Assembly (NCBI RefSeq): GCF_014529625.1
Contig: NZ_CP076039.1
Coordinates: 868,001-932,000, forward strand
Direction of reading: 5' to 3'
DNA from: Candidatus Pelagisphaera phototrophica
GTDB taxonomy: Bacteria > Verrucomicrobiota > Verrucomicrobiia > Opitutales > Opitutaceae
DNA: 64,000 nt
Shown here in pieces: positions 5,516 to 57,226 of the stretch. The notes under the pieces are model-generated. The model was not told the DNA's origin and made no database searches. It saw nothing but the letters and a program-made list of their open reading frames with translations. The position numbers were made by a program, and so were the translations under genes. Numbering within the stretch: the stretch's first letter is position 1; each line of letters starts with the position of its first letter.

Positions 5516-7156
5516 TCAATCGATCTTAATCCTCTTAGGCCAGCCGGGAACTTCGATATCAATCGGATCGCGCGTGTCAGGGTCCATGGGATGAATATCC
5601 AAAATGATTTCGCGGGCTTCTTTGTCGAAAAGGACCATGCCGTAGCCGACTATGCCATCGGCTTTTGCGATTAAGGTGAGCTTGTTGCCAAAGCGATCAT
5701 GATAGTTGCCGGTACCGTTCATGCCAGGAATGGCCCCTCCCTGTGGCGGTTCCTCTGGTTCCCAGATACGTCCCTGTCCTGATCCGAAAGCAGGAAGCGA
5801 GTAGGTCCAAGGTCCGTCTCCCCAATTGTCGATACCCTGTTTTAGGATCGTCGCATAGTGCAGGTCTCCCGAAATCATGACCGCTTGCGATGGAGAGATG
5901 GCCCGCAGGGCATTATCGCGAGGGGTTTGCGGCCAGCCATTGGAATCCATATCGCCGTAATAAGGTTTGTAGTTGCCCACATTTACCAGGGGCGACTGGT
6001 GCAAGACGGCGGCTAGCCGACCTTTTTGTTCGACGTCTTCCACCCATCGGCGGACGAATTTCTCCTGGGCTTCACCCAAAAGATTCAAACCAGGCTGGTC
6101 GAGCGAGCTCGTGTCAAAGGCGGGATCCATAATAACTTCAAGCGTTGTATTCGGTTTATTGTTATGGGGATCGTCAATAGGCTCGGAGAGAACGTCGGTG
6201 GGAGGCGACTTGAACTTGCGATCCTCGAGCAGGGCGAAGCTGACGCCAGCGTAGTCTAAAGAGGTGAAGTAAGCCCTGATACCGGAGCCCCAGGGACCTG
6301 GCGCGACCGCATCGGGCAGATGCCCCATCTGCATGCGCTCAACCGCATTCGTCCACTTGGGGTGAAGGTAGCCGCCGCCTTCGCGGTAGATGAGCATTCG
6401 GGTTCTTTCTGGAGCGTTGCCGAAATTGTAGGGGGCGCTCGGATTGAATCCTTCCTCGCACTTGGTCTTCATGCGCTTGCCACCGACGCCCCAGAGGTCG
6501 GCCACGTAGACATCGTGGTCATCGGTAAGGATGATGGATGGCCGGTCTTTCAGTAGATCGCGAAAGATAAGGCCGAACTTTCGCCACTTCGGCAGGTAGT
6601 TCGCCAAAGCAGGCAGCACGTCCTTTTCGTCGTGGGCTTGGATCGTCTCGCCACCTGCATTGGTTTGGTAGAGCTGATCACCGGCAAAAAAGAGGATGTC
6701 AGGATCTTGCTCGATCATCTGCTGCACGGCTTTTCCATAGGGAAACCGATTATCGTTCACGCAGGAAACCGCCATGAGTTTCAGGGTTCGCTTGTCGATC
6801 GGCTCCGCTCTGATGATCCCCTCGATCAAGGTCGAGCCGCAGACTACCCGGTAGACATGGCTCGTATCCGAATCCCAATTCTCAATTCGGAAGGCGGCCA
6901 TTGCCGTCAGGGGTTCTACTTCTGCTGAGGCTACGGTCTTCCATGTGTCGCCAGACTTCAGCTCTAGGCTAGCTATTGCGTCCACGGGATCCATCGGGTC
7001 GAGGTCCGTATGAGCGGTCAGCTTTAGCGTGTTGTTCGCGAGACCATATTGAGCCCAGAGCAGGTTTACGGGGTCATGCTGGGCGTTGGCAGACAGCGGA
7101 ACCGCAATCGATACGACGCTCGCCAATGCGATCAGTGGGAAAAGGGTACATTTCAT
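5516..7156 (-). CDS. Secreted PhoD-like phosphatase/phosphodiesterase
   Basis: This 546-residue metallophosphatase belongs to the alkaline phosphatase D superfamily. I place the start at the ATG at 7156 because it begins the signal peptide (KCTLFPLIALASVV up to SANAQ); an upstream in-frame start at 7213 would bury it. Key motifs are VSCVNDNRFPYGKAV, DILFFAGDQLY (metal ligands), ILTDDHDVYVADLWG and MISGDLHYATIL. Family members release phosphate from phosphodiesters or phosphomonoesters outside the cytoplasm using Fe/Ca. The N-terminal part (about residues 20-120) is a beta-rich domain typical of the PVC versions. It lies downstream of the propeller/cytochrome gene on the same strand with 164 bp between. 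No Pho-box-like repeat was seen in front of it. Confidence 0.82.
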   Translation of the reverse strand: MKCTLFPLIALASVVSIAVPLSANAQHDPVNLLWAQYGLANNTLKLTAHTDLDPMDPVDAIASLELKSGDTWKTVASAEVEPLTAMAAFRIENWDSDTSHVYRVVCGSTLIEGIIRAEPIDKRTLKLMAVSCVNDNRFPYGKAVQQMIEQDPDILFFAGDQLYQTNAGGETIQAHDEKDVLPALANYLPKWRKFGLIFRDLLKDRPSIILTDDHDVYVADLWGVGGKRMKTKCEEGFNPSAPYNFGNAPERTRMLIYREGGGYLHPKWTNAVERMQMGHLPDAVAPGPWGSGIRAYFTSLDYAGVSFALLEDRKFKSPPTDVLSEPIDDPHNNKPNTTLEVIMDPAFDTSSLDQPGLNLLGEAQEKFVRRWVEDVEQKGRLAAVLHQSPLVNVGNYKPYYGDMDSNGWPQTPRDNALRAISPSQAVMISGDLHYATILKQGIDNWGDGPWTYSLPAFGSGQGRIWEPEEPPQGGAIPGMNGTGNYHDRFGNKLTLIAKADGIVGYGMVLFDKEAREIILDIHPMDPDTRDPIDIEVPGWPKRIKID

Positions 7157-27557: not shown

Positions 27558-27692
27558 GGTTCTTGTAGGGAAAGTAGCTAGCCTTGCGATCTAGTATAAG
27601 TATTCCAACTTTCAAGGCGGCCCGATATCTTAGTTAAGGATCTCCTTTGACAGGAATGTCCATATTCCTTGGGCTGGGTGGAAATGCTTCGA

Positions 27693-29615
27693 ATGACTAT
27701 GATTAAACTATTTTTGGCAACACTCTCAATGCTTTTTGGATTACTGTCGCTTTCCGCGGCCGACTTTGGTCCCGATTGGGAACAGCTAGATACCGCCGTC
27801 AATGGACGATGGTGGGAGAAAACCCACACGGGAAACAATGCCTGGTTGGAGATGGTCAAGGTTCCGCGCGACGAAGTGGTTGCGTTTGCAGTCTACACCG
27901 TGGATCGAAGAACGGTGAAAATGACGGCCCAGATGTATCCGCTCTATCCGGACGAATCACGAGAAGTGCGACTTGAGCTAATGATCGACGGTGTTTGGCA
28001 GGAGGTTGGGTCAGCGCCTATCTACGAGCTTGGCTGGTCAGCCCACTTTCGTATCAACGGCTGGGACGAGAGTAAAAGTGTGCCCTATCGTGTGCGCCAT
28101 GGAGGAGAAGCTCAGTTTGAGGGAACCATCCGAGCGAATGACAAGAGCAAGAATGAAATCGTTGTCGGGAATCTGTCCTGTAATTCACGTTGGGATCGCG
28201 GGGACCGCAATGCGATTGTAGCGAATTTGAAAAAGCTAGATCCTGACTTGCTGTTTTTTGCGGGTGACCAGACATATGACCACACGGAGCACACCTCTGG
28301 ATGGATCCTGTTTGGGACACAATTTGCCGCAATTATCAAGGATCGGCCCACGGTAACGATTCCTGACGACCATGATATTGGTCAAGGCAACCTTTGGGGA
28401 GAGGGGGGCATCAAAGCGGATACGCTTCGGGATCACAATAAGGGAGGTTATTACTACTCTGAGGACTACGTGCGCACGGTAGAGCGCTGCCAGACATGGC
28501 ATCTTCCTGATGCGTATGACCCTACACCCATCGCCCAAGGTATTGGAGTTTACTATACGAGTTATAATGTAGGCGGAATCGATTTTGCTATCATCGAAGA
28601 CAGGAAATTCAAGTCGGGCCCGAGCGGAAAGATTCCTGATATGGGGCCGCGCCCTGATCATATAAACGACCCCAGTTATATTCGCTCCGCGGTGGACATC
28701 GAAGGAGTTCATCTTCTGGGACCCAGACAGTTGGCATTTTTGCGAAACTGGTCTGAAGATTGGACGGGAGCGGATATGAAGTGCGTGCTTTCCGCCACCA
28801 ACTTTGCAGGTGCCGTTCATCTGCATGGCAGTTTTGAGAATCGGTTGCTGGCTGATTTGGATAGCAATGGTTGGCCGCAAACCGGTCGCAAAAACGCTCT
28901 AACTGAAATGCGTCGTGGAATGGCGTTTCACTTAGCCGGGGACCAGCACCTGTCCGTGATGACGCGTCATGGAATTGAAAATTGGAGAGATGGTCCGGTG
29001 ACGTTTGTCAGTCCAGCCATCGTTAACAGCATTTACGGTCGTTGGTGGTGGCCAGAGGGCGGAGAGTCAGGAGCCAATCCGGTCGAAGAGAGCCCGCTTC
29101 CATGGACGGGCGACTACGAAGATGGTTTAGGCAATAAAATCACCATGCTCGCTTATGCAAATCCTGATCCTCAAGCGAACCGTCGTGGCGAGCGTGGTCC
29201 GGACGATGATTGGGCCGACGGTTTTGGCATCGCTCGATTCTTCAAAGATTCCCAGGAAGTCGTATTTGAATGTTGGCCACGATACAGCGATGTAAGCAAG
29301 GGTCATTCAGCGCAATTTCCGGGATGGCCAATGCGGTTCAAGATGAGCGACAACGATGGTCGTGACCCGGCGGCGTACCTTCCCGAGTTGAGTTTCAAAG
29401 GAATCGAAAACCCCGTAGTTCAAGTCATTGAAGAATCGACAGGTAATGTGCTGTATACCACTCGAGTTAAAAGCAAAACTTATCGCCCTAAAGTGTACAC
29501 AAATGGCAAATACACGATTAGGGTCGGGGAAGGCTTGCCCATTCTCAAAACTGTGAAAGGTGTGCAATCCGTTGCAGCGAGCAATACGAAGAAGATGACT
29601 ATCAGCGTAAGGTAA
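27693..29615 (+). CDS. Secreted PhoD-like phosphatase, long form
   Basis: This 640-residue exported metallophosphatase is a second member of the PhoD superfamily in the window. Motifs are VGNLSCNSRWDRGDRNAI, DLLFFAGDQTYDHTEH, VTIPDDHDIGQGNLWGEGG and HLAGDQHLSVMTRHG. I use ATG 27693, with GGGTGGA ten bases upstream and a signal peptide (MIKLFLATLSMLFGLLSLSA) just inside; ATG 27684 and 27699 are alternatives. The C-terminal 90 residues are a beta-rich add-on (NGKYTIRVGEGLP). It shares only core motifs with the PhoD-like protein at 5.5-7.2 kb. It stands alone between the esterase and a sulfatase. Confidence 0.82.
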   Translation: MTMIKLFLATLSMLFGLLSLSAADFGPDWEQLDTAVNGRWWEKTHTGNNAWLEMVKVPRDEVVAFAVYTVDRRTVKMTAQMYPLYPDESREVRLELMIDGVWQEVGSAPIYELGWSAHFRINGWDESKSVPYRVRHGGEAQFEGTIRANDKSKNEIVVGNLSCNSRWDRGDRNAIVANLKKLDPDLLFFAGDQTYDHTEHTSGWILFGTQFAAIIKDRPTVTIPDDHDIGQGNLWGEGGIKADTLRDHNKGGYYYSEDYVRTVERCQTWHLPDAYDPTPIAQGIGVYYTSYNVGGIDFAIIEDRKFKSGPSGKIPDMGPRPDHINDPSYIRSAVDIEGVHLLGPRQLAFLRNWSEDWTGADMKCVLSATNFAGAVHLHGSFENRLLADLDSNGWPQTGRKNALTEMRRGMAFHLAGDQHLSVMTRHGIENWRDGPVTFVSPAIVNSIYGRWWWPEGGESGANPVEESPLPWTGDYEDGLGNKITMLAYANPDPQANRRGERGPDDDWADGFGIARFFKDSQEVVFECWPRYSDVSKGHSAQFPGWPMRFKMSDNDGRDPAAYLPELSFKGIENPVVQVIEESTGNVLYTTRVKSKTYRPKVYTNGKYTIRVGEGLPILKTVKGVQSVAASNTKKMTISVR

Positions 29616-44677: not shown

Positions 44678-47113
44678 ATGTCGTCACACGAATCACATCG
44701 CATCGCAAAGGCCTTTCTGACGTCCCCTAACGAAGGTGTAGTGGAGCTTTCGCATGATTGGAAAGCCCAACGGCGTCCTCTTATTAGCTTCGGTGGCGAG
44801 CGGGACGGGTTCTCGAAGGTCGAACCTATTCCCGCAAGCGACTTCGCCTTTGAGAGTCGATACTATGTCGATGAAAACAGCTTTGGAGTGTTTGTTTTCG
44901 ACCCGATCGAACATCCGATCTTTGAATACGAGGAGCTTTCGATTTATCTAGCCGGTTCTTTCAATGGATGGCAGGATGCAGTTGGAAAGGCAAAGTGGCG
45001 GATGTCGCGCACCCAGTTGGAAGGGCGGGAGGTCTACTCTCTGAAACTTCCACTGGAGTTGCTGACTATCGAGGAAGCCATCCTTTTCAAATTTGTGACT
45101 GATCAGCATTACTGGATCCCCGCTGATCCAGAAGCTCCGAATTTCGTTAGCGACGATGAAGGAAATGGCAATTACCGCTTTAGCTTGAAGCGAAGCGGGA
45201 GGCATCGCTTGCGATTTAAGCTATCCCGACCGCTCGATCTTTCAGAAAACCACTCGCTTGTCTATCACGGAAGGTTGCACTCGCACGAAGCGGATCTTGA
45301 CCCCGGCCCATTCTTTTTCGGTCTTAAATCGGATAAGCCTCTCGGCGCGATTGTGGAAGGGGAGTGCACCACGTTTCGACTTTTTGCGCCTCGAGCGAAA
45401 TGGGTAAAAGTCGGTGTTTTTCAAAAGGGTGAGTCGAAGGATGAATTGGATTGGTCCCTCATGGAGCGATCGGACGACTACGTTTGGGAGGCGATGTTCC
45501 ACCAAAATCTTACGGGAGCTCGCTACTGGTATCGACTTGATGGTCCGAGTGGTTCCACCGGGAATTTCGATCCGGATTTCAAAATCCTTGATCCCTACGC
45601 GAAAGCAACTGTGAGCTGCGATGGGCCTGGCATCGTAGTGGATGAAAAAATGTATTTGCCTGTCCGGAATTTCCAGCCGGTGGCGTGGCAAGACTTGGTT
45701 GTGATGGAAGCTCATACCCGTGACTTGGTGGCGGGAATTCCTGAAAGTGGGAGAAATAGGGTTCCGTTGGGTTTTTCCGATCTCAGCCGTTTTGTTCAAG
45801 AAGAGAATTTCTATCCGGCCACCCTGGGTATAAACGCATTAGAGCTTCAGCCAGTCCAGGAGAATGATAGCCAGTCTTATGTAGAATACCATTGGGGTTA
45901 TATGACGGCGAATTTCTTTTCTCCTGCCTCCTCGTATGCCAGTGATCCGGAAAGTGCGTCTCAAATCGAGGAATTTCGTGATCTTGTATCCAGTATCCAC
46001 GGTCGAGGAATGGCAGTTATTCTCGATGTCGTTTACAATCATGTAGGGGAGCCCGCCCACTTAATGTACATCGACAAGCTGTACTACTTTCATCTGCAGG
46101 GCGATGGTGTATTGACGAATTGGAGTGGCTGTGGAAACGACATGAGATGCGACGCCCCAATGAGCCGACGCCTAATTGTTGAGAGCCTAAAGCACTTAGT
46201 TGCTTTTTATGGGGTCGACGGTTTTCGTTTTGATTTGGCGGACTTGGTGGGAAGAGCGGCGCTGCAGGAGGTTGAACGAGAGCTAAAATCGATCAAGCCG
46301 GATGTTATTCTGATCGCAGAACCGTGGAGCTTTCGTGGCCACATCGGCCGCGACTTGAGAGATACGGGTTTCGCGTCATGGAACGATGGTTACAGGGAAA
46401 GCGTTAAGTCATATGTCAGGGGCGGTTCGAGCTCTGAAGCGCTTAGCTATTTTCTAATGGGATCTCCTGGCGACTATGCTAGTTGGCCTGCCCAGACGGT
46501 GAACTACACGGAATCGCATGATGATCGGACGTGGATCGATGCCATTACGGAGTACCCGGACAACAATGGCTCCCATCCGTCGGTAAGCGATCAGAGGCGG
46601 ACACGGATGATGGGAGCTATCATGATGATGTCGATTGGGATACCCATGATTCATGCGGGCCAGGATTTTCTTTTCTCCAAGAACGGGGTAAACAACACCT
46701 ACCAAAGGGGCGACTTGAACGCCTTAGACTACGAAAGACGGATCGAGTATGCCCTGACCAGTGACTATTTCAAAGACTGGATCAGTTTCAGGAAGTCGGA
46801 GCTGGGCGAATTGGTTCGCCACTATTCGAGGGCGAGCGAAGGTTTTTTTCAATTTATAAAGACCGAAGGGCGGAATGCTTTGGCTGCTGTGTTCAACGCA
46901 GACCGAAGCAAGGGGAACGCCCGGCTGCTTTTTGCGGTGAATCCCGAGCGGGAGCCTCTCCGTATAACACTTGGGAATTGGGAGGCCGATTGGATTCAAC
47001 TTGCGGATCACGATCGATTTTGGGGCTTTGAGGAGAAATCCCTGAACAATAATCTAAGTTTGGAATTGACGCTTCCGCCTCTAGGGACGGGGTTGTGGGT
47101 TTCGCGCAGCTGA
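44678..47113 (+). CDS. GH13 glycogen-debranching/pullulanase-type enzyme
   Basis: This 811-residue glycoside hydrolase family 13 protein has two N-terminal CBM48-like beta domains (about 85-175, YLAGSFNGWQDA, and 225-310, TFRLFAPRAKWVKV), a catalytic barrel (about 345-700) and a C-terminal beta domain. GH13 motifs: DVVYNHV, GVDGFRFDLADL (nucleophile Asp519), LIAEPWSF (acid Glu548), NYTESHDD (Asp615). The order CBM48-barrel with YNHV/ESHDD fits the isoamylase/pullulanase group acting on alpha-1,6 links of glycogen or starch. No signal peptide, so it likely debranches internal glycogen. It stands upstream of gapA but with its own spacing (138 bp). Confidence 0.87.
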   Translation: MSSHESHRIAKAFLTSPNEGVVELSHDWKAQRRPLISFGGERDGFSKVEPIPASDFAFESRYYVDENSFGVFVFDPIEHPIFEYEELSIYLAGSFNGWQDAVGKAKWRMSRTQLEGREVYSLKLPLELLTIEEAILFKFVTDQHYWIPADPEAPNFVSDDEGNGNYRFSLKRSGRHRLRFKLSRPLDLSENHSLVYHGRLHSHEADLDPGPFFFGLKSDKPLGAIVEGECTTFRLFAPRAKWVKVGVFQKGESKDELDWSLMERSDDYVWEAMFHQNLTGARYWYRLDGPSGSTGNFDPDFKILDPYAKATVSCDGPGIVVDEKMYLPVRNFQPVAWQDLVVMEAHTRDLVAGIPESGRNRVPLGFSDLSRFVQEENFYPATLGINALELQPVQENDSQSYVEYHWGYMTANFFSPASSYASDPESASQIEEFRDLVSSIHGRGMAVILDVVYNHVGEPAHLMYIDKLYYFHLQGDGVLTNWSGCGNDMRCDAPMSRRLIVESLKHLVAFYGVDGFRFDLADLVGRAALQEVERELKSIKPDVILIAEPWSFRGHIGRDLRDTGFASWNDGYRESVKSYVRGGSSSEALSYFLMGSPGDYASWPAQTVNYTESHDDRTWIDAITEYPDNNGSHPSVSDQRRTRMMGAIMMMSIGIPMIHAGQDFLFSKNGVNNTYQRGDLNALDYERRIEYALTSDYFKDWISFRKSELGELVRHYSRASEGFFQFIKTEGRNALAAVFNADRSKGNARLLFAVNPEREPLRITLGNWEADWIQLADHDRFWGFEEKSLNNNLSLELTLPPLGTGLWVSRS

Positions 47114-50473: not shown

Positions 50474-50974
50474 TCAAGATCGAGAGGGTCGATTTTTAAT
50501 GCGTCTCCAGCTCTTTAGGAGCTGGTTTTTGATCCTGTCCTGATCAATGGGTTTTTCCAGGAAACCGTCCATTCCGGCAAGTTTACATCTCAATTTGGTT
50601 TCAGGGCTGACGTTGGCGGTGATCGCAATAATTTCGGTCTTGTTTGATCCCATGGTGCTGGATTTTTCGTGTTCCCTCAACGCTTGAGCGAGTTCGACCC
50701 CATCCATTTCAGGCATGTCAATGTCGGTAAATAAGATATCGAACGGTTCCTTTTTCAAGAGGCCCATAGCCTTTTCCCCTCCGGATGCTTCGATCGGTTG
50801 GTAACCGAGCCGGTCTAGGATGGTTTGTACGACGTTTCTATTAATGGCATTGTCGTCCGCTACGAGGATCCGCAATGGCCGCTTTTCCGCGAAACTTGCA
50901 GTGGTTTGGGGAAGCGGAATTGAAGGATCGGATGCGAATAGGTCTTCCTGGCTCTCGTTCATGCTCATCCCCAT
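50474..50974 (-). CDS. Stand-alone response regulator (receiver domain only)
   Basis: This 166-residue protein is a single receiver domain: RILVADDNAINRNVVQTIL (acidic pair), the phospho-acceptor Asp in ILFTDIDMPEMDG, IIAITANVS (switch Thr/Ala) and FLEKPI (Lys). The sequence style is that of receivers from hybrid kinases, so it may act in a phosphorelay, or may be a receiver that has separated from a hybrid protein; no kinase lies upstream. N-terminal 30 residues are disordered. Convergent with tpiA, 8 bp apart. The double-GAF kinase at 39.5-41.2 kb is one possible partner. Confidence 0.88.
   Translation of the reverse strand: MGMSMNESQEDLFASDPSIPLPQTTASFAEKRPLRILVADDNAINRNVVQTILDRLGYQPIEASGGEKAMGLLKKEPFDILFTDIDMPEMDGVELAQALREHEKSSTMGSNKTEIIAITANVSPETKLRCKLAGMDGFLEKPIDQDRIKNQLLKSWRRIKNRPSRS
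50507..50530 (+). terminator. Terminator of tpiA inside the convergent receiver gene
   Basis: Perfect stem CCAGCTC / GAGCTGG (50507-50513, 50519-50525), loop TTTAG, then TTTTT on the plus strand. It lies 42 bp past the tpiA stop, within the last codons of the minus-strand response-regulator gene. Confidence 0.8.
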
Positions 50975-51244: not shown

Positions 51245-51321
51245 GGGGTAGTAGCTCAGTTGGTTAGAGCGCCTGCCTGTCACGCAGGAGGCCGCGAGTT
51301 CAAGTCTCGTCTATCCCGCCA
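51245..51321 (+). tRNA. tRNA-Asp (GTC)
   Basis: A complete tRNA of 77 bases with encoded CCA. Acceptor GGGGTAG (51245-51251) pairs with CTATCCC (51311-51317, one G-T); D arm GCTC-AGTTGGTTA-GAGC; anticodon stem CCTGC/GCAGG with loop CTGTCAC, anticodon GTC at 51279-51281; T arm CGAGTTCAAGTCTCG. Discriminator G73, as required for Asp, then CCA. No other tRNA nearby. Confidence 0.97.
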
Positions 51322-51359: not shown

Positions 51360-51662
51360 CGAAAACAGGGAAGACGGATCGTAGTGAGACTCGATTGGAG
51401 AAAGCTGACGGGTCGGGGCGCTGACAAAACGGGCACTCGTTGGGACGCTATTGGGTGGTTTTCTAATCCCAGTCGTTGGAAACGCCGTTTTTAGGGCCCG
51501 ACTGCGCCAATAGTGCGCCGATCTTGGCCCTGCAGTGTCGATTTTGTTACGGCAGTGTTACTAACATGTGTCGGTTGTTACAGAGGGGTGACAATGGACA
51601 GAGTTTAGTTTTTTCGCGTTGAAGAGGGCCATTTTTCGATTGGCATTTATGGTCTACAAATC
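51360..51662. other. 303-base upstream region of the TonB receptor
   Basis: No gene. The right half (51535-51592) carries the direct-repeat array described separately. The left half holds no repeat or motif that I can name. About 70 bases lie between the last repeat and the receptor start. Confidence 0.6.
51535..51592 (+). promoter_or_regulatory. Array of 11-bp-spaced direct repeats, Pho-box-like
   Basis: Pentamers GTGTC (51535), GTTAC (51546), GTTAC (51557) and GTGTC (51568) repeat at an exact 11-bp period; a second pair, GTTAC (51577) and GTGAC (51588), is also 11 bp apart. Four are preceded by T, giving TGTTAC/TGTGTC. PhoB boxes consist of 11-bp direct repeats built on TGTCA, so this is a good candidate for a Pho regulator array 70 bp in front of the TonB receptor. 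The consensus is not identical (TTAC for TCAT), so the regulator is inferred. Confidence 0.6.
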
Positions 51663-54572
51663 ATGAAACGAAACAGCTTTGCTTTCCGTAATCGGCAAAC
51701 GTTCGGCCTATCGATTAAAGGGTCTTTAATGTTCGTCATTGCCTACAATATCAACGTTCTATTTGCACAAGAACAAAAGTCTGGTACCCTCTCTGGTGCA
51801 GTCCAGGATGCTGACTACGGAGGTGCCGTATTGAACGCCAAGGTCACGATTTTGGAGAATCAGATGTCTGCAAAGACGAACGTTGATGGACGATACTTTT
51901 TTAGTGGAGTTCCGGAAGGCACCTACACGCTCATCGTTTCAGCTCCTTACTATAAGTCTTCCCAGGTGGAATCGCTTGATATTGAAGCAGGCGAGGTTAA
52001 GAAAATGGATGTTCCACTTTTCAATGACACTTCAGATGTTATCGAACTGGATTCCTTCTCGGTTAAGGCAGAAGTACTGGAGGATTCTGATATAGGTCTA
52101 CTGACCCAACGGCAAAAAGCGCCGGCCATCAGTGACGCTATGGGGTCTGAAACGTTTAGCAGGCTAGGACTTGGCGATGCAGCGGATGCGCTCGCCAAGG
52201 TGACAGGGGCTTCCATTCAGGACGGGAAGTACATGGTCGTTAGAGGACTTTCTGATCGTTACAATACAACGACCCTCAACGGGACGACCGTTCCCAGTGC
52301 GGACCCGAACCGCAAGTCGGTGCAACTGGATCAATTCCCGACGGGCTTGCTCGATGTGATCGAGACTACGAAGACCTTTACCCCAGACAAGTCGGGCGAA
52401 TTTACGGGTGGAGCTGTCAATATCCAGACGAAATCTTTTCCTGACCAGTTCTTCTACAATGTGTCCTACGGAATTGGGTACAATACAAACTCGACGGGGA
52501 CATCTTTCCTTTCTTATCCGGGCGGCTCGAGCGACTGGCGTGGCAAGGATGATGGAACGAGGGAGGTGCCTGATCGTCTAGCCCGGAATGAAAATCTTTC
52601 TACCTTGAGCAACGCTGAGCAGTCAGAGATACTAAATGACCTGTCACCGGTTATCTCTCCTATTGATTCGGGGGACGCTCCGCTGAACCGGAGTTTTTCG
52701 CTGGCGTTTGGAGACAGCGTCTTGCTGTCGAATGACGGCGAGAAGCGATTTGGCTACACGGCAAGCCTGACCCATAGTCGCGATTTTTCTACCCGCACGG
52801 GGGCGCCAGAAGTGCGCTATCAATTTGATCGCGGGGTGGATGGCTCTGTGTTGAACCCAGAATTCGACATGCTAGTTGATGAGTCGGAGAACTCCGCCAA
52901 CCTTGGGGGGCTGTTTAACGCGGCACTACAGCTATCCTCTGAGCATGAAATCGGGCTGAAGAATTTCTTCAACCAGTCTGCTAGCGACAAGGCGTTCTTG
53001 CAGCAAGGGGTGGTGAAGGGAAGTGAGGATCAATACCTCAGGGAGAGCAGGATTCACTTTACCGAGCGAAACATCCGCTCCAATCAGCTTTACGGAAAAC
53101 ATGTCTTCCCAAATCTGGGAAGGGCCAAATTTGAATGGAACTATGCCAAGTCAAATAGCACGCAGGACGAGCCTGACTTTATCGTGTTTTTCGACGCGGT
53201 AGGGCTAGAGGATTTCAATGATGCCGACAGAGATTTGTCCAGTGTTGATCCAGATGACTGGAAGTTTCCAACGGGATTCACTAATCGGAGGAACTTTCGC
53301 GAGCTTGAGGAAACCGCGGACGAATTTGGTTTCGATATAGAACTGCCATTCGCCTTTGGAGACAGGGAAGGATCGTACCTGAAAGCTGGCATGAGAAATA
53401 TCGAGGCGGATAGGCAGTATAATGCCTTGGCATTTAGCTGGAGCGATGGTGATCGATTCGTGAACTACACGGGGAATCGGGATGGCTTTTTGTCTCCAGA
53501 AAACATCAATTTGGACAGTAATGGCGAAACGGGCGTTGTCATGGTCAACCTGACTGACGCCTACCCAGAGTATATAGGGAATCGAGAAGTTTCGGCAGCC
53601 TACATTATGGCGGATATTCCGGTGACTAAGAAGATTCGCCTCATCGGAGGTGTGAGACATGAAGATACTTCGGTCCAGGTGACTTCCGTATCAGGACGCC
53701 CTCAGTACATCCCGAATTCCGAGTCAAGCATTGCCGACGATCACTTCCTGCCCTCAGCGAATCTGGTTTGGAGTATCAACGAACGCCAGAACCTGCGTTT
53801 TGCTTATTCGAATACAATCGCTCGTCCCAGCTTTCGTGAGCTCACTCCAGCGGCCGAGTTTGATTCGATCGGCTCTTTTCTCATAATAGGAAACCAAAAT
53901 CTGAAGATGTCTGAAATCGCGAATTACGACATCCGCTGGGAAATGTTTCCAAAGAATGGTGACGAGCTTTTCGCAGTGAGCCTGTTCTACAAGGATCTTG
54001 AGAACCCTATAGAGCAGGTTATCGACCGGTTTGGTTTCATCTCGTGGGACAATGTGGAAACGGGAAAAGTTAAAGGCGTGGAGCTGGAGGCTCGCAAGAA
54101 GATCAATCTGCTCTCCTCTGAATTCACGTCCTTTTCCCTTGGCGGCAACTTGGCTATCATTGATTCGGAGGTTAATCGATCCCAATTGGAGATCGATCGC
54201 AAGATAGCCGAGTTTCCTGATTTGTCACCGACTCGAGAACTCCAGGGGCAGTCATCTTCGATATTCAATTTTGACGCGTCCTGGGAGCATTACCGTAAGG
54301 GAGCGGCCATTACACTCTCCTATAATAACACCGGTGAACGCCTCTATGCGGTTACAAACGCTAATCTGCCATTGGTTGATGAAAAGCCCTCGGAAGTTCT
54401 GGACTTGATTGCCAGCCAGAGACTCGGTCCATCGTGGAAGCTCAAATTCAAGGTGAGCAATCTGCTCGATTCCGAGTCAAGGCGGTTCCACGCGTTCAAG
54501 GGGGTTGAGTTCCCATACTCTCTAGATGAGTCGGGCCGAACCTTTTCGCTAAGCGTAAGTTACGGAAAGTAG
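51663..54572 (+). CDS. TonB-dependent outer-membrane receptor
   Basis: This 969-residue receptor has a signal peptide (cleavage near FAQ, about 36), a carboxypeptidase-regulatory-like domain (about 40-118: GTLSGAVQDADYGGAVLNAK, TNVDGRYFFSGVPEGTYTL), a candidate TonB box (VIELDSFSVKAEVL), the plug (about 155-265, ADALAKVTGASIQDGKYMVV then RGLSDRYNTTTLNGTTVP) and a long beta-barrel that ends in an aromatic-rich strand (TFSLSVSYGK). Such receptors import iron chelates, oligosaccharides or phospho-compounds; this one is paired with a beta-helix protein and preceded by Pho-box-like repeats, so a phosphorus-containing ligand is a reasonable guess. No SusD partner follows. Confidence 0.92.
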   Translation: MKRNSFAFRNRQTFGLSIKGSLMFVIAYNINVLFAQEQKSGTLSGAVQDADYGGAVLNAKVTILENQMSAKTNVDGRYFFSGVPEGTYTLIVSAPYYKSSQVESLDIEAGEVKKMDVPLFNDTSDVIELDSFSVKAEVLEDSDIGLLTQRQKAPAISDAMGSETFSRLGLGDAADALAKVTGASIQDGKYMVVRGLSDRYNTTTLNGTTVPSADPNRKSVQLDQFPTGLLDVIETTKTFTPDKSGEFTGGAVNIQTKSFPDQFFYNVSYGIGYNTNSTGTSFLSYPGGSSDWRGKDDGTREVPDRLARNENLSTLSNAEQSEILNDLSPVISPIDSGDAPLNRSFSLAFGDSVLLSNDGEKRFGYTASLTHSRDFSTRTGAPEVRYQFDRGVDGSVLNPEFDMLVDESENSANLGGLFNAALQLSSEHEIGLKNFFNQSASDKAFLQQGVVKGSEDQYLRESRIHFTERNIRSNQLYGKHVFPNLGRAKFEWNYAKSNSTQDEPDFIVFFDAVGLEDFNDADRDLSSVDPDDWKFPTGFTNRRNFRELEETADEFGFDIELPFAFGDREGSYLKAGMRNIEADRQYNALAFSWSDGDRFVNYTGNRDGFLSPENINLDSNGETGVVMVNLTDAYPEYIGNREVSAAYIMADIPVTKKIRLIGGVRHEDTSVQVTSVSGRPQYIPNSESSIADDHFLPSANLVWSINERQNLRFAYSNTIARPSFRELTPAAEFDSIGSFLIIGNQNLKMSEIANYDIRWEMFPKNGDELFAVSLFYKDLENPIEQVIDRFGFISWDNVETGKVKGVELEARKKINLLSSEFTSFSLGGNLAIIDSEVNRSQLEIDRKIAEFPDLSPTRELQGQSSSIFNFDASWEHYRKGAAITLSYNNTGERLYAVTNANLPLVDEKPSEVLDLIASQRLGPSWKLKFKVSNLLDSESRRFHAFKGVEFPYSLDESGRTFSLSVSYGK

Positions 54573-54635
54573 GGCGGGACCGGATACGAATTTTTCCAAA
54601 CTCTTCTTATACATAAAACAAGAAACCCATATAAA

Positions 54636-56477
54636 ATGAAACGAGCAATAAAAATGATCACCGCTTCGGCTCTCCTTGCAGGAGCGGTTTACGCAGCTGA
54701 CGTGAACGTCACGACCAATATCACGTCAGACACTACATGGACATCGGATAATGTTTACCACATGTCTGGATTTATAACCGTAGATGGGGCTACTTTGACG
54801 ATTGAGGCAGGCACTGTTATCAAGTCCGCTGCAGGAACAGGTACAGATGCTACTGCGTTGATCATCTCACGAACGGGCAATATCAACGCGGTAGGGTTTC
54901 GTTCTGCACCGATCATTTTTACTGCAGAAGCGGATCCTATGGATGGATCTTGGGGACCTGAAAACGGTAATGCCTGGGGTGGGCTAATTATTCTCGGGAA
55001 CGCTCCTATCAACTCTGATCGGAACAAGAACAGTTGGACTGAGGGAACGACCATTACGGACACTGTGGAAGGCATTCCAGAGTTCCTGCCGGAAGCGTCC
55101 CGAGTCTTCGGTGGCACGGATCCAGAGGACAGCTCGGGAACCTTGAGCTACGTTTCGATTCGCTTTGGCGGTTCTGAATTGGCTCAGGATGCTGAGATCA
55201 ATGGGTTGACACTAGGAGGCGTGGGCAGAGGTACGCAGATCGACCACATCGAAGTTTTTGCCAACTCCGACGACAGTATCGAGTTCTTCGGTGGCACCGT
55301 AGATCTTAAATACGCAGTCGCTGCTTATGGGGGTGATGATGGATTTGACTACGACCAAGGCTGGGAAGGACGTGGTCAGTTTTGGGTATACGTTGGTGGA
55401 CCCGTTGCGAATTCCAAATTTAGTCCTGACAATGGGGGAGAGCACGACGGCGAGACTTCATTTAATGCCGGTCGGAATATCGGAGGGGGTACGATTTATA
55501 ACGCAACCTACGTAGGCAATGGTGAGGGTGGAGCAGCTCTTCGCATTCGCGACAACGCATATGCGCTTTACAAGAATTCCATCTTTACTGGGTGGCCCAC
55601 TGGCATTCGAATCGAAGCAGACTCCGGTCTTCGTATTCCTTCCAACGGTGAGACGGTTTCGTTGATGGATATTACCAACAATCTTTGGGATTTCGAAGCC
55701 GCGGACCTATTCCACGGTGATGAGGATGACACCCTCGGAGCGGGAGGGACAAACCTCGACGACGGAGAAGCTTTCTTAGCCGACGCAGGAAATAACAATA
55801 CGGTTGAGGCAGCCCTCCTGGCAGGGATCTCTCGCACGGCCGACGGGGGATTTGATCCTCGTCCCCTGTCTAGTAGCCCTGCCTTGTCAAATGCGTTGGC
55901 AGCTTACCCGCAAGACGACTTTTTCGACGAAGTCGCGTACCAGGGTGCTTTCTCTAGAAACGACAACTGGCTTGCCGGCTGGACGTATCTTTCTCAGGCT
56001 GGATACTTGGCGGCTTCATCGGAATCGAGTGGTGACCTCGTGAACTTGTCGACTCGGGGCTTTGTCGACGCGGGCGAAACGGTCACAGTCGGTTTTACAG
56101 TGATCGGTGCATCACAACAGTTGTTAATTCGTGCGGTTGGACCGAAATTGGCTGATCTTGGAGTTTCTTCTCCTATGGCGGATCCCCAATTCACGATCTT
56201 CAGGACCGACTATACACAGAGCCCTCCTGCCCAGATAGAAGTTGGGGTAGCAGACGACTGGGTCGAAGAGAACGTGGCTCAGCTTTCGGCAACAATGGCA
56301 CAGGTAGGTGCATTTCCGCTCGAGGTGACTGAATTCCAAGGAACTTCTTACGATACTGTAGATACAACCAGTTCCGCTGTCACTCGCAGCTTGGGAGAGG
56401 GTGTCTACACCATTCAAGTTTCTTCCCATGACGGTGGTGCAGGTGAAGTCCTCATCGAAGTGTACACTGTCGACTAG
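54636..56477 (+). CDS. Secreted beta-helix protein, partner of the TonB receptor
   Basis: This 613-residue exported protein starts with signal peptide RAIKMITASALLAGAVYA. Residues about 25-450 are a parallel-beta-helix-type, Gly/Asn/Asp-rich region (TVIKSAAGTGTDATALIISR, GRGTQIDHIEVFANSDDSIE, GFDYDQGWEGRGQFWVYVGG). The C-terminal 150 residues (SGDLVNLSTRGFVDAGETVT, LLIRAVGPKLADLG, TIQVSSHDGGAGEVLIEVYT) match the module seen at the end of many verrucomicrobial secreted proteins. Similar beta-helix genes often follow TonB receptors in Bacteroidetes and proteobacteria. It lies 63 bp after the receptor and is closed by a terminator. Surface location and ligand binding are inferred. Confidence 0.8.
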   Translation: MKRAIKMITASALLAGAVYAADVNVTTNITSDTTWTSDNVYHMSGFITVDGATLTIEAGTVIKSAAGTGTDATALIISRTGNINAVGFRSAPIIFTAEADPMDGSWGPENGNAWGGLIILGNAPINSDRNKNSWTEGTTITDTVEGIPEFLPEASRVFGGTDPEDSSGTLSYVSIRFGGSELAQDAEINGLTLGGVGRGTQIDHIEVFANSDDSIEFFGGTVDLKYAVAAYGGDDGFDYDQGWEGRGQFWVYVGGPVANSKFSPDNGGEHDGETSFNAGRNIGGGTIYNATYVGNGEGGAALRIRDNAYALYKNSIFTGWPTGIRIEADSGLRIPSNGETVSLMDITNNLWDFEAADLFHGDEDDTLGAGGTNLDDGEAFLADAGNNNTVEAALLAGISRTADGGFDPRPLSSSPALSNALAAYPQDDFFDEVAYQGAFSRNDNWLAGWTYLSQAGYLAASSESSGDLVNLSTRGFVDAGETVTVGFTVIGASQQLLIRAVGPKLADLGVSSPMADPQFTIFRTDYTQSPPAQIEVGVADDWVEENVAQLSATMAQVGAFPLEVTEFQGTSYDTVDTTSSAVTRSLGEGVYTIQVSSHDGGAGEVLIEVYTVD

Positions 56478-56547: not shown

Positions 56548-56632
56548 GTCGTTTTTTGTCGCTTGTCTTGGAAATGGGTTGTTTGTTTTGTAATGAATCC
56601 TAGCAGTGGCACCGTTAGATACAGTTAGAGTA

Positions 56633-57226
56633 ATGAGAGTTTTTGAAAAGGGAGTGCAAGGAGGACGCTTGTTTAAGGCGATGGTCATTCTTTTCCCGTT
56701 CGCAGCACCTTCCTTATTATGGGGTGAAGAGCCGAGATCTCCCTTTGAGCGGGCTAGCAAACCGGTCGTTGTGAACGCTCCAGCGAAAGCAGTTCCTTCG
56801 CGCCTGGATAAAATAGAGTTCACGGGGCTTCTGGGGTTTGGAGGCCAAGTTACCATCAGTCTCTATGACACCAAGACGAAGCAAAGTCTCTGGATACCTC
56901 TTGGCGGGGCTCAAGATGGGATTTCCGTTTCTGGATTTGATGAGGACAACGGGACGATTTCGGTCAGTCTTCAGGGCAGATCGCGAGAGATCGCTATAAA
57001 CGAGAATGAAATCGTCGCCTTGAAACGGACCGAACCGGTTGTCGCCGCTAATAGACGAACTCCTGCGCCCCCTAAAAAGCCCGTTCGAGTCAAGGATGAC
57101 GAGACCCTCCGGGAAGAGGAGGAAGCCCGTATATTTGTCAGTGACCTGCTTTCAAACGGCCTGCAGCAGCGGGAGAAATTTCGCAAAGCGAGAGAAGCTC
57201 GCATTGCCCAGGCCAAGGGGAATTGA
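56633..57226 (+). CDS. Exported protein of unknown function
   Basis: Up to 206 codons are open from 56606; I prefer ATG 56633 (197 aa), which starts just before a signal-anchor-like stretch (LFKAMVILFPFAAPSLLWG). The mature part has a small beta domain (IEFTGLLGFGGQVTISLYDT, ISVSGFDEDNGTISVSLQGR) and a charged helical tail (DDETLREEEEARIFVSDLLS, QQREKFRKAREARIAQAKG). The beta domain recalls the periplasmic PilP/GspC-like pieces in secretion systems, but there are no such neighbours, so I give no function. Confidence 0.65.
   Translation: MRVFEKGVQGGRLFKAMVILFPFAAPSLLWGEEPRSPFERASKPVVVNAPAKAVPSRLDKIEFTGLLGFGGQVTISLYDTKTKQSLWIPLGGAQDGISVSGFDEDNGTISVSLQGRSREIAINENEIVALKRTEPVVAANRRTPAPPKKPVRVKDDETLREEEEARIFVSDLLSNGLQQREKFRKAREARIAQAKGN

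Follow-up and report, generated by a model that had tools for sequence, protein, structure and literature searches.

A split Pho-box-like array precedes a TonB-dependent receptor and beta-helix gene pair in Candidatus Pelagisphaera phototrophica

The receptor/beta-helix locus and its upstream repeats

The window analysed here is a 64,000-bp stretch of the genome of Candidatus Pelagisphaera phototrophica, a member of Verrucomicrobiota (contig NZ_CP076039.1, positions 868,001 to 932,000), whose genome of 4.09 Mb forms a single contig. It contains a gene for a TonB-dependent receptor (TBDR) next to a gene for a secreted right-handed beta-helix protein, and in front of the receptor gene lies an array of short direct repeats which we read as a probable Pho box (Table 1). 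A sequence-only reading of this DNA had placed GTGTC or GTTAC pentamers at six positions and had described 11-bp steps between them. All six pentamers are there, as GTGTC at 51535 and 51568, GTTAC at 51546, 51557 and 51577, and GTGAC at 51588, the last being neither of the two pentamers that had been named; the spacing was borne out as well, with successive steps of 11, 11, 11, 9 and 11 bp.

The core unit of the array is GTTAC-N6, and two 11-bp pairs of it are linked by a 20-bp step, the two putative PhoB-dimer boxes lying 31 bp apart from start to start. This 11-20-11 layout was scored as the pattern GTNAC-N6-GTNAC-N15-GTNAC-N6-GTNAC. The score of the window array was reached by none of 2000 dinucleotide-preserving shuffles of the upstream region, and no other array in the window comes within three mismatches of either four-unit layout (11-20-11 or a continuous 11-11-11 run). 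The repeats are therefore genuine, and chance comes nowhere near to accounting for them.

Table 1. Features of the receptor/beta-helix locus, in positions of the window
Feature	Position	Strand	Remarks
Conserved 11-20-11 array	51546..51592	+	four GTNAC half-sites (51546, 51557, 51577, 51588); two putative PhoB-dimer boxes
Extra GTGTC units (51535, 51568)	51535..51572	+	share the 11-bp register of the first pair; relatives do not generally have them
Conserved block TTTTCGCGTTGAA	51611..51623	+	starts 18 bp after the last half-site; possible core-promoter element
TonB-dependent receptor, 969 aa	51663..54572	+	Pfam PF00593, PF13620, PF07715; kept beside the beta-helix gene
Secreted right-handed beta-helix protein, 613 aa	54636..56477	+	ElpS/FI-like core ~1-455 plus C-terminal domain ~437-612
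Third open reading frame, 206 aa from GTG 56606	56606..57226	+	conserved downstream of the pair within the genus and in some further genera
tRNA-Asp	51245..51321	+	upstream of the array; boundary marker, outside the system
Single-domain response regulator	50474-50974	-	between tpiA and tRNA-Asp

The same repeats in relatives and at pst and phoB promoters

Among relatives, 18 loci holding the beta-helix gene were fetched, 17 of them with DNA upstream of the receptor gene (the contig of the remaining one, L060, starts inside that gene). The 11-20-11 layout is present without mismatch in the window, in all four upstream regions from the same genus (L056-L059) and in 3 of the 13 from other genera (L062, L063, L066). 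It occurs with one mismatch in L073, and L061, L064, L067 and L068 carry an 11-11-11 run with one or two mismatches. Counting the window, 14 of 18 upstream regions had, in one of the two layouts, an array that was unmatched by 2000 dinucleotide shuffles each. The array is perfect in seven of these relatives, of which L056 alone shows GTGTC in the middle spacer and not one shows it at the 51535 unit; the array copy in genome G006 carries both of these units. A spacing scan on eight arrays gave 11/20 as the best combination, a result that is circular as a test because these arrays were already known to fit. At ten of the 80 more distant loci, counting those that passed the length and start filters, an upstream array was found at p<=0.05 with 100 mononucleotide shuffles; these were not used as evidence, several having 3-4 mismatches and one of them (L126) being the G008 locus again.

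In the receptor promoters of the genus, the last half-site is followed 18 bp on by a block containing TTTC[AG]C; the porin-pst promoters have a block of loose similarity at the equal offset. When a matrix derived from pst promoters was run on the receptor promoters, the best of 45 offsets fell at this shared block, a weak result with a mean of -0.5 bits and a nearly equal score, -0.9 bits, at the next offset. The block is a possible core-promoter element.

The half-site recurs at genes of phosphate uptake and its control. A single PstB above the family cut-off is found in the host genome, in a cluster of the order porin-pstS-pstC-pstA-pstB-phoU (pstA being assigned by position), and the porin promoter reads GTTAC-N6-ATTAC-N6-GTTAC-N6-GTAGC, with two mismatches. 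A run of this kind, with 0-1 mismatch, is present in nine of the ten pst stretches from the same genus, the tenth (G004) being cut by a contig end. Among eight pst stretches from other genera, G022 has it with no mismatch, G029 and G030 with one each, and G018 and G023 have three-unit runs. The host pstS promoter carries a weaker set, with 3 mismatches to the 11-20-11 layout, which was not used as evidence. Moreover, an exact GTNAC-N6-GTNAC pair, mostly reading GTAAC-N6-GTAAC, lies 76-81 bp before phoB in all ten genus genomes with sequence upstream of this gene; in other genera the pair is present in G022, G012 and G020 and is missing from most of the remaining phoB upstream regions.

A sequence model was built from 11 pst arrays of relatives, the host genome being excluded. 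In the host genome it gave three hits at E<=10, namely the host's own pst promoter (6.0e-6) and the receptor array twice (0.30 and 6.86). This run scored 150 of the 1221 first-look candidates and may have passed over weaker sites, the phoB pair being one that was not listed. Across the 11 genomes of the genus, 18 of the 20 hits at E<=2 are pst promoters or the receptor promoter. The 11 pst-promoter hits comprise nine training members, that of the host and one, in G004, inferred from its upstream neighbour; the seven receptor-promoter hits comprise those of the host, G001, G005, G008 and G010, which were known before, together with G003 and a remnant locus in G006. The other two hits lie elsewhere, in G001 (contig C24) and in G005 (contig C28, a weak match). 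A receptor-promoter model made from relatives had the receptor promoter as its sole hit at E<=10 in the host genome (3.7e-9).

The proposal of the sequence-only reading that the array is a phosphate-controlled Pho box is thus upheld by the GTTAC-N6 repeats at the pst operon and before phoB and by the recovery of the receptor promoter with the pst model. It had also suggested a search for arrays near pst and phoD genes and had named a lack of them at other phosphate genes as refuting; this check came out in its favour, with arrays at the porin-pst promoter of the host and of the genus. No array lies near the PhoD-like open reading frame (ORF) of the window. The two PhoD-like phosphatases that had been claimed for the window found weak support. 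The Pfam scan took in 20 of the 69 window ORFs of at least 120 aa, and among these 20 one (27669-29615) gave a sub-threshold PhoD match, with 21.6 bits against a cut-off of 27. An array preceding this gene as well was considered and rejected.

Some of these sites have features of their own. The frame of the host porin (C1 ~1396655-1398047; L012:4656-6048) holds two in-frame TAA stops (5793-5795 and 5886-5888), and the gene looks interrupted; its array is also the most degraded among the genus arrays seen. At the remnant locus of G006 (C3 ~228153, L266) the array is kept, the receptor is matched over no more than its first 167 residues and the third ORF follows directly; no beta-helix core was found, and the locus has the appearance of a deletion. 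The G001 hit (C24:12230-12251, L262; E 0.0019) is a strong GTTAC-N6-GTTAC site that appears to be intergenic, and no phosphate gene is obvious in its surroundings. G046 (C7:190691-196548), from another family of the order, has the beta-helix gene with a PhoB-like regulator within 6 kb, and its receptor upstream region carries an 11-20-11 array with one mismatch.

The pair, its known counterparts and its neighbours in other genomes

The receptor is made up of an N-terminal carboxypeptidase-regulatory-like domain (PF13620), a plug and a barrel, with PF00593 (119.8 bits, 3.7e-34) and PF07715 (30.3 bits) both above cut-off. The beta-helix protein matches no Pfam or NCBIfam family, and no SusD family was found in this partner; its N-terminal stretch, MKRAIKMITASALLAGAVYAAD, contains no cysteine and thus no lipoprotein signal. 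A model of the core (residues 1-455) from 66 sequences is a right-handed parallel beta-helix, with a predicted local distance difference test score (pLDDT) of 87.7 and a predicted template modelling score of 0.90; it replaced a poor first model from 8 sequences (pLDDT 68.4). The best structural matches are the pectate lyase Pel9A (1ru4; Z 22.2, root-mean-square deviation 3.6, 290 residues), phage tailspikes and alginate epimerases/lyases, among which Pel9A, the tailspikes and the epimerases are tied within one Z unit. With this model Foldseek returned no hit below E 0.001, and the beta-helix profile had no match at E<=1 among sequences of solved structures. Since the C-terminal part (~437-612) matches 18 further places in the host genome, it is probably a shared surface or secretion/export domain of the lineage; some of these places sit in open frames of more than 1000 aa.

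In Caulobacter crescentus, the lipoprotein ElpS (CC0170) is encoded beside the TonB receptor CC0171 and genes of the type II secretion system (T2SS); elpS is induced by phosphate starvation, and cc0171 was reported as constitutive, with data not shown in that paper (PMC2996285). Plasmids of Sphingomonas and Indioceanicola carry a beta-helix homologue, then a TonB receptor and T2SS genes, which is the gene order of the published cc0170 (elpS)/cc0171 setting (PMC2996285). The window beta-helix protein aligned with the Sphingomonas protein in the ElpS-like position at 100% probability in hhalign (2.9e-44, 36% identity), and the two receptors aligned by BLASTP with 28% identity over 878 alignment columns (7e-63). 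The window pair was likened to ElpS by way of the Sphingomonas pair, and to ElpS and FI-FIII by their published description. As in Caulobacter, a TonB receptor neighbours a hypothetical protein. Unlike in Caulobacter, the receptor gene comes first, the signal peptide is without cysteine, T2SS genes do not adjoin the pair among the window neighbours examined, and one Pho-box-like array precedes both genes.

In Flavobacterium johnsoniae, the lipoproteins FI, FII and FIII, which have polygalacturonase-like models and are related to the Caulobacter protein, are strongly induced at low phosphate, and TonB transporters are induced alongside them (PMC8115612). The window pair resembles PUSIII of this bacterium, where a TonB transporter stands beside an extracellular polygalacturonase-like protein; PUSIII differs in that it is a system of Bacteroidota with lipoproteins and that it also includes FecR/sigma regulators, a protease and other genes (PMC8115612). 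The encoding of a TonB barrel with a surface partner is likewise shared with SusCD/PusCD, the Pus case being phosphate-regulated (PMC8115612), but the partner in the window is a beta-helix protein in which no SusD family was found. PhoB-controlled TonB receptors of Caulobacter likely take up phosphate donors (PMC11208175). As to the array, Pho-box consensus sequences consist of CTGTCAT repeats in E. coli and GTTCACC repeats in Streptomyces (PMC4832192). The window array shares with these boxes the 11-bp pitch of direct repeats at phosphate genes, and differs from them in its TGTTAC unit and in having two pairs with a 20-bp step in place of a continuous 11-bp run. The covered parts of PMC12872454 and PMC9723704 added nothing on a Pho box, and no Pho operator was found described for Verrucomicrobiota in the part of the matching papers that was covered. 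Low-phosphate control of a TonB receptor together with an ElpS/FI-like beta-helix protein is already known as a kind of system; new here is a member from Verrucomicrobiota, one whose putative Pho box is split and which lacks both the lipoprotein signal and the T2SS neighbours of ElpS.

In other genomes the pair has pst genes for neighbours (Verrucomicrobiota, Latescibacterota and Bacteroidota) or, in further phyla, PhoB-like genes. G030 has, on one strand, receptor, beta-helix, a pstS copy, porin, pstS, pstC, pstA, pstB and phoU; in G028 the order on the same strand is receptor, beta-helix, a gap of ~1.5 kb, porin, two pstS, pstC, pstA, pstB, phoU and a PhoB-like gene. Among the best 80 of at least 594 confirmed beta-helix matches, whose counts are not population frequencies, a TBDR hit is present in 57 loci, a pst-type gene in 8 and a PhoB-like regulator in 15, within the stretches covered, the last count being weak because such regulators are common. 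Within 57 relatives, the beta-helix core occurs in 20 of the 42 genomes with a PstS hit and in none of the 15 without (Fisher p 0.0005, the groups being read by eye). Genome size and kinship confound this association, which therefore counts for little. The adjoining pst genes in some relatives, along with the low-phosphate induction of the homologues (PMC2996285, PMC8115612), agree with the phosphate control that had been proposed for the window.

Regulation and function of the pair

Taken together, the best explanation is that the array is a Pho box and that the pair serves PhoB-controlled phosphorus acquisition, to which we give a probability of about 0.82. The receptor and beta-helix genes share their repeats with phosphate-uptake genes and are thus most likely switched on when phosphate runs out; phosphate control of the pair appears very likely from the promoter comparisons, and its function is less certain than this control. 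The host's best match to PhoB, encoded at C1:410940 next to a kinase gene, is a regulator of the OmpR type; matches to this regulator lie within ~8 kb of pstS in four genomes (G012, G013, G016 and G037) and, in G028, behind phoU. For a related regulator of the OmpR/PhoB family it is established that the dimer binds direct repeats in tandem and that trimers and tetramers form on longer repeats (PMC4832192). Under phosphate limitation, phosphorylated PhoB would bind the GTTAC-N6-GTTAC pairs as two tandem dimers, which at 31 bp, or about three helical turns, would sit on one face of the DNA. It would then activate one transcript for the receptor, the beta-helix protein and probably the third ORF. 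Receptor and beta-helix protein would work jointly at the cell surface, where they would capture or process a compound containing phosphorus; its import would feed the periplasmic route of PstS and phosphatases. Such a role in capture and import is favoured because of the co-regulation and the synteny with the phosphate porin and Pst. A wider proposal, which we advance tentatively, is that the pair is a widespread outer-membrane phosphorus importer, SusCD-like with a beta-helix protein in the place of SusD, that was brought under Pho control in several phyla, and that in this genus the split 11-20-11 box seats a pair of PhoB dimers at a distance of about three helical turns.

Several observations weigh against the Pho-box explanation. 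With one mismatch, TGTTAC-N5-TGTTAC occurs at 3 places in the genome against 17 for the reversed control. Taken by itself, the receptor array reaches no better than E 0.30 under the pst-derived model, owing to the difference in layout. Arrays were marginal against 2000 dinucleotide shuffles in L071 (26/2000) and L070 (21/2000) and absent from the receptor upstream regions of L065 and L072, and the pst stretches L117, L118 and L119 yielded no array. Within the best 80 beta-helix matches, 23 loci show no TBDR, some of them in stretches of ~15 kb. The unit TGTTAC, found at the array and at the pst promoters of the genus, is unlike the E. coli TGTCAT core, and the core TGTCA is not matched. The C1:410940 regulator reaches 250.4 bits against an NCBIfam PhoB cut-off of 296.2, three other full-length regulators of the host match the PhoB model with 217, 203 and 149 bits, and direct repeats at 11-bp pitch are a general trait of the OmpR/PhoB family (PMC4832192).

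These last points would suit a different OmpR-family regulator with the same repeat habit, the receptor then serving another nutrient or a stress. We consider this quite improbable: the half-site itself, beyond its spacing, agrees with the pst and phoB promoters, the pst-derived model puts the receptor promoter directly after that of pst in the host, and pst genes are neighbours of the pair in further genera and phyla. That the repeats are a chance pattern can be set aside as refuted. When two mismatches are allowed, the two-unit pattern is no rarity in the window, with 5 occurrences for 2.0 expected, and it shows no enrichment in the genome; strict-pattern counting in window and genome was judged unconvincing by itself. 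The exact form TGTTAC-N5-TGTTAC has a single match in the genome, at the array; the two other places found with one mismatch were dropped, the stretches fetched there being without a longer array. Nevertheless, the shuffles of the four-unit layout, its conservation in relatives and the recovery of the promoter by an independent model all speak against chance.

The function of the pair is where alternatives deserve more room. Phosphate control might be real and the pair nonetheless be a polysaccharide-binding or -cleaving beta-helix protein with a sugar receptor, or part of a surface change under starvation, a reading that we hold to be possible, if doubtful. The polysaccharide-active beta-helices among the best structural matches would fit it, as would the pullulanase-like ORF at 44678-47113 and the suggestion of glycan binding or hydrolysis for FI/FII/FIII (PMC8115612); yet a shared fold shows no function, the Foldseek search was empty below its threshold, gap, pgk and tpiA stand between the pullulanase-like ORF and the pair, and in other genera the synteny is with pst. 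Somewhat less likely still, the beta-helix protein could help phosphatases outside the cell, as has been reported for ElpS, with the receptor acting in its export, release or sensing instead of in uptake. Over-production of ElpS went along with higher activity of secreted alkaline phosphatase, and the T2SS is not needed for ElpS to reach the surface (PMC2996285). However, a single organism is the source of these data, plug and barrel domains are present in the receptor, and none of the ten ORFs scanned with Pfam around the pair is a phosphatase.

The phosphorus-acquisition reading offers a concrete and testable Pho box for Verrucomicrobiota, and a widely distributed pair of beta-helix protein and TonB receptor that promoter and synteny tie to phosphate genes far from Caulobacter and Flavobacterium. 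If it is true, the role of the ElpS/FI proteins, which are abundant at low phosphate, becomes testable in several phyla.

The neighbours of the pair in the window are tpiA, the single-domain regulator, the tRNA-Asp gene, the third ORF and metK. The third ORF is 84% identical in G006, 60-62% in G008 and ~30% in two other genera; it matches no known family, and no Pfam family was found for the window member. A GspC-like nature of this ORF was tested for, because T2SS genes adjoin the pair elsewhere, and found no support. The third ORF is possibly the last gene of the cluster or an extra component of the system. The tpiA/tRNA-Asp neighbourhood around the locus is repeated within the genus, and a similar single-domain response regulator stands at the equivalent place in G003 and G008.

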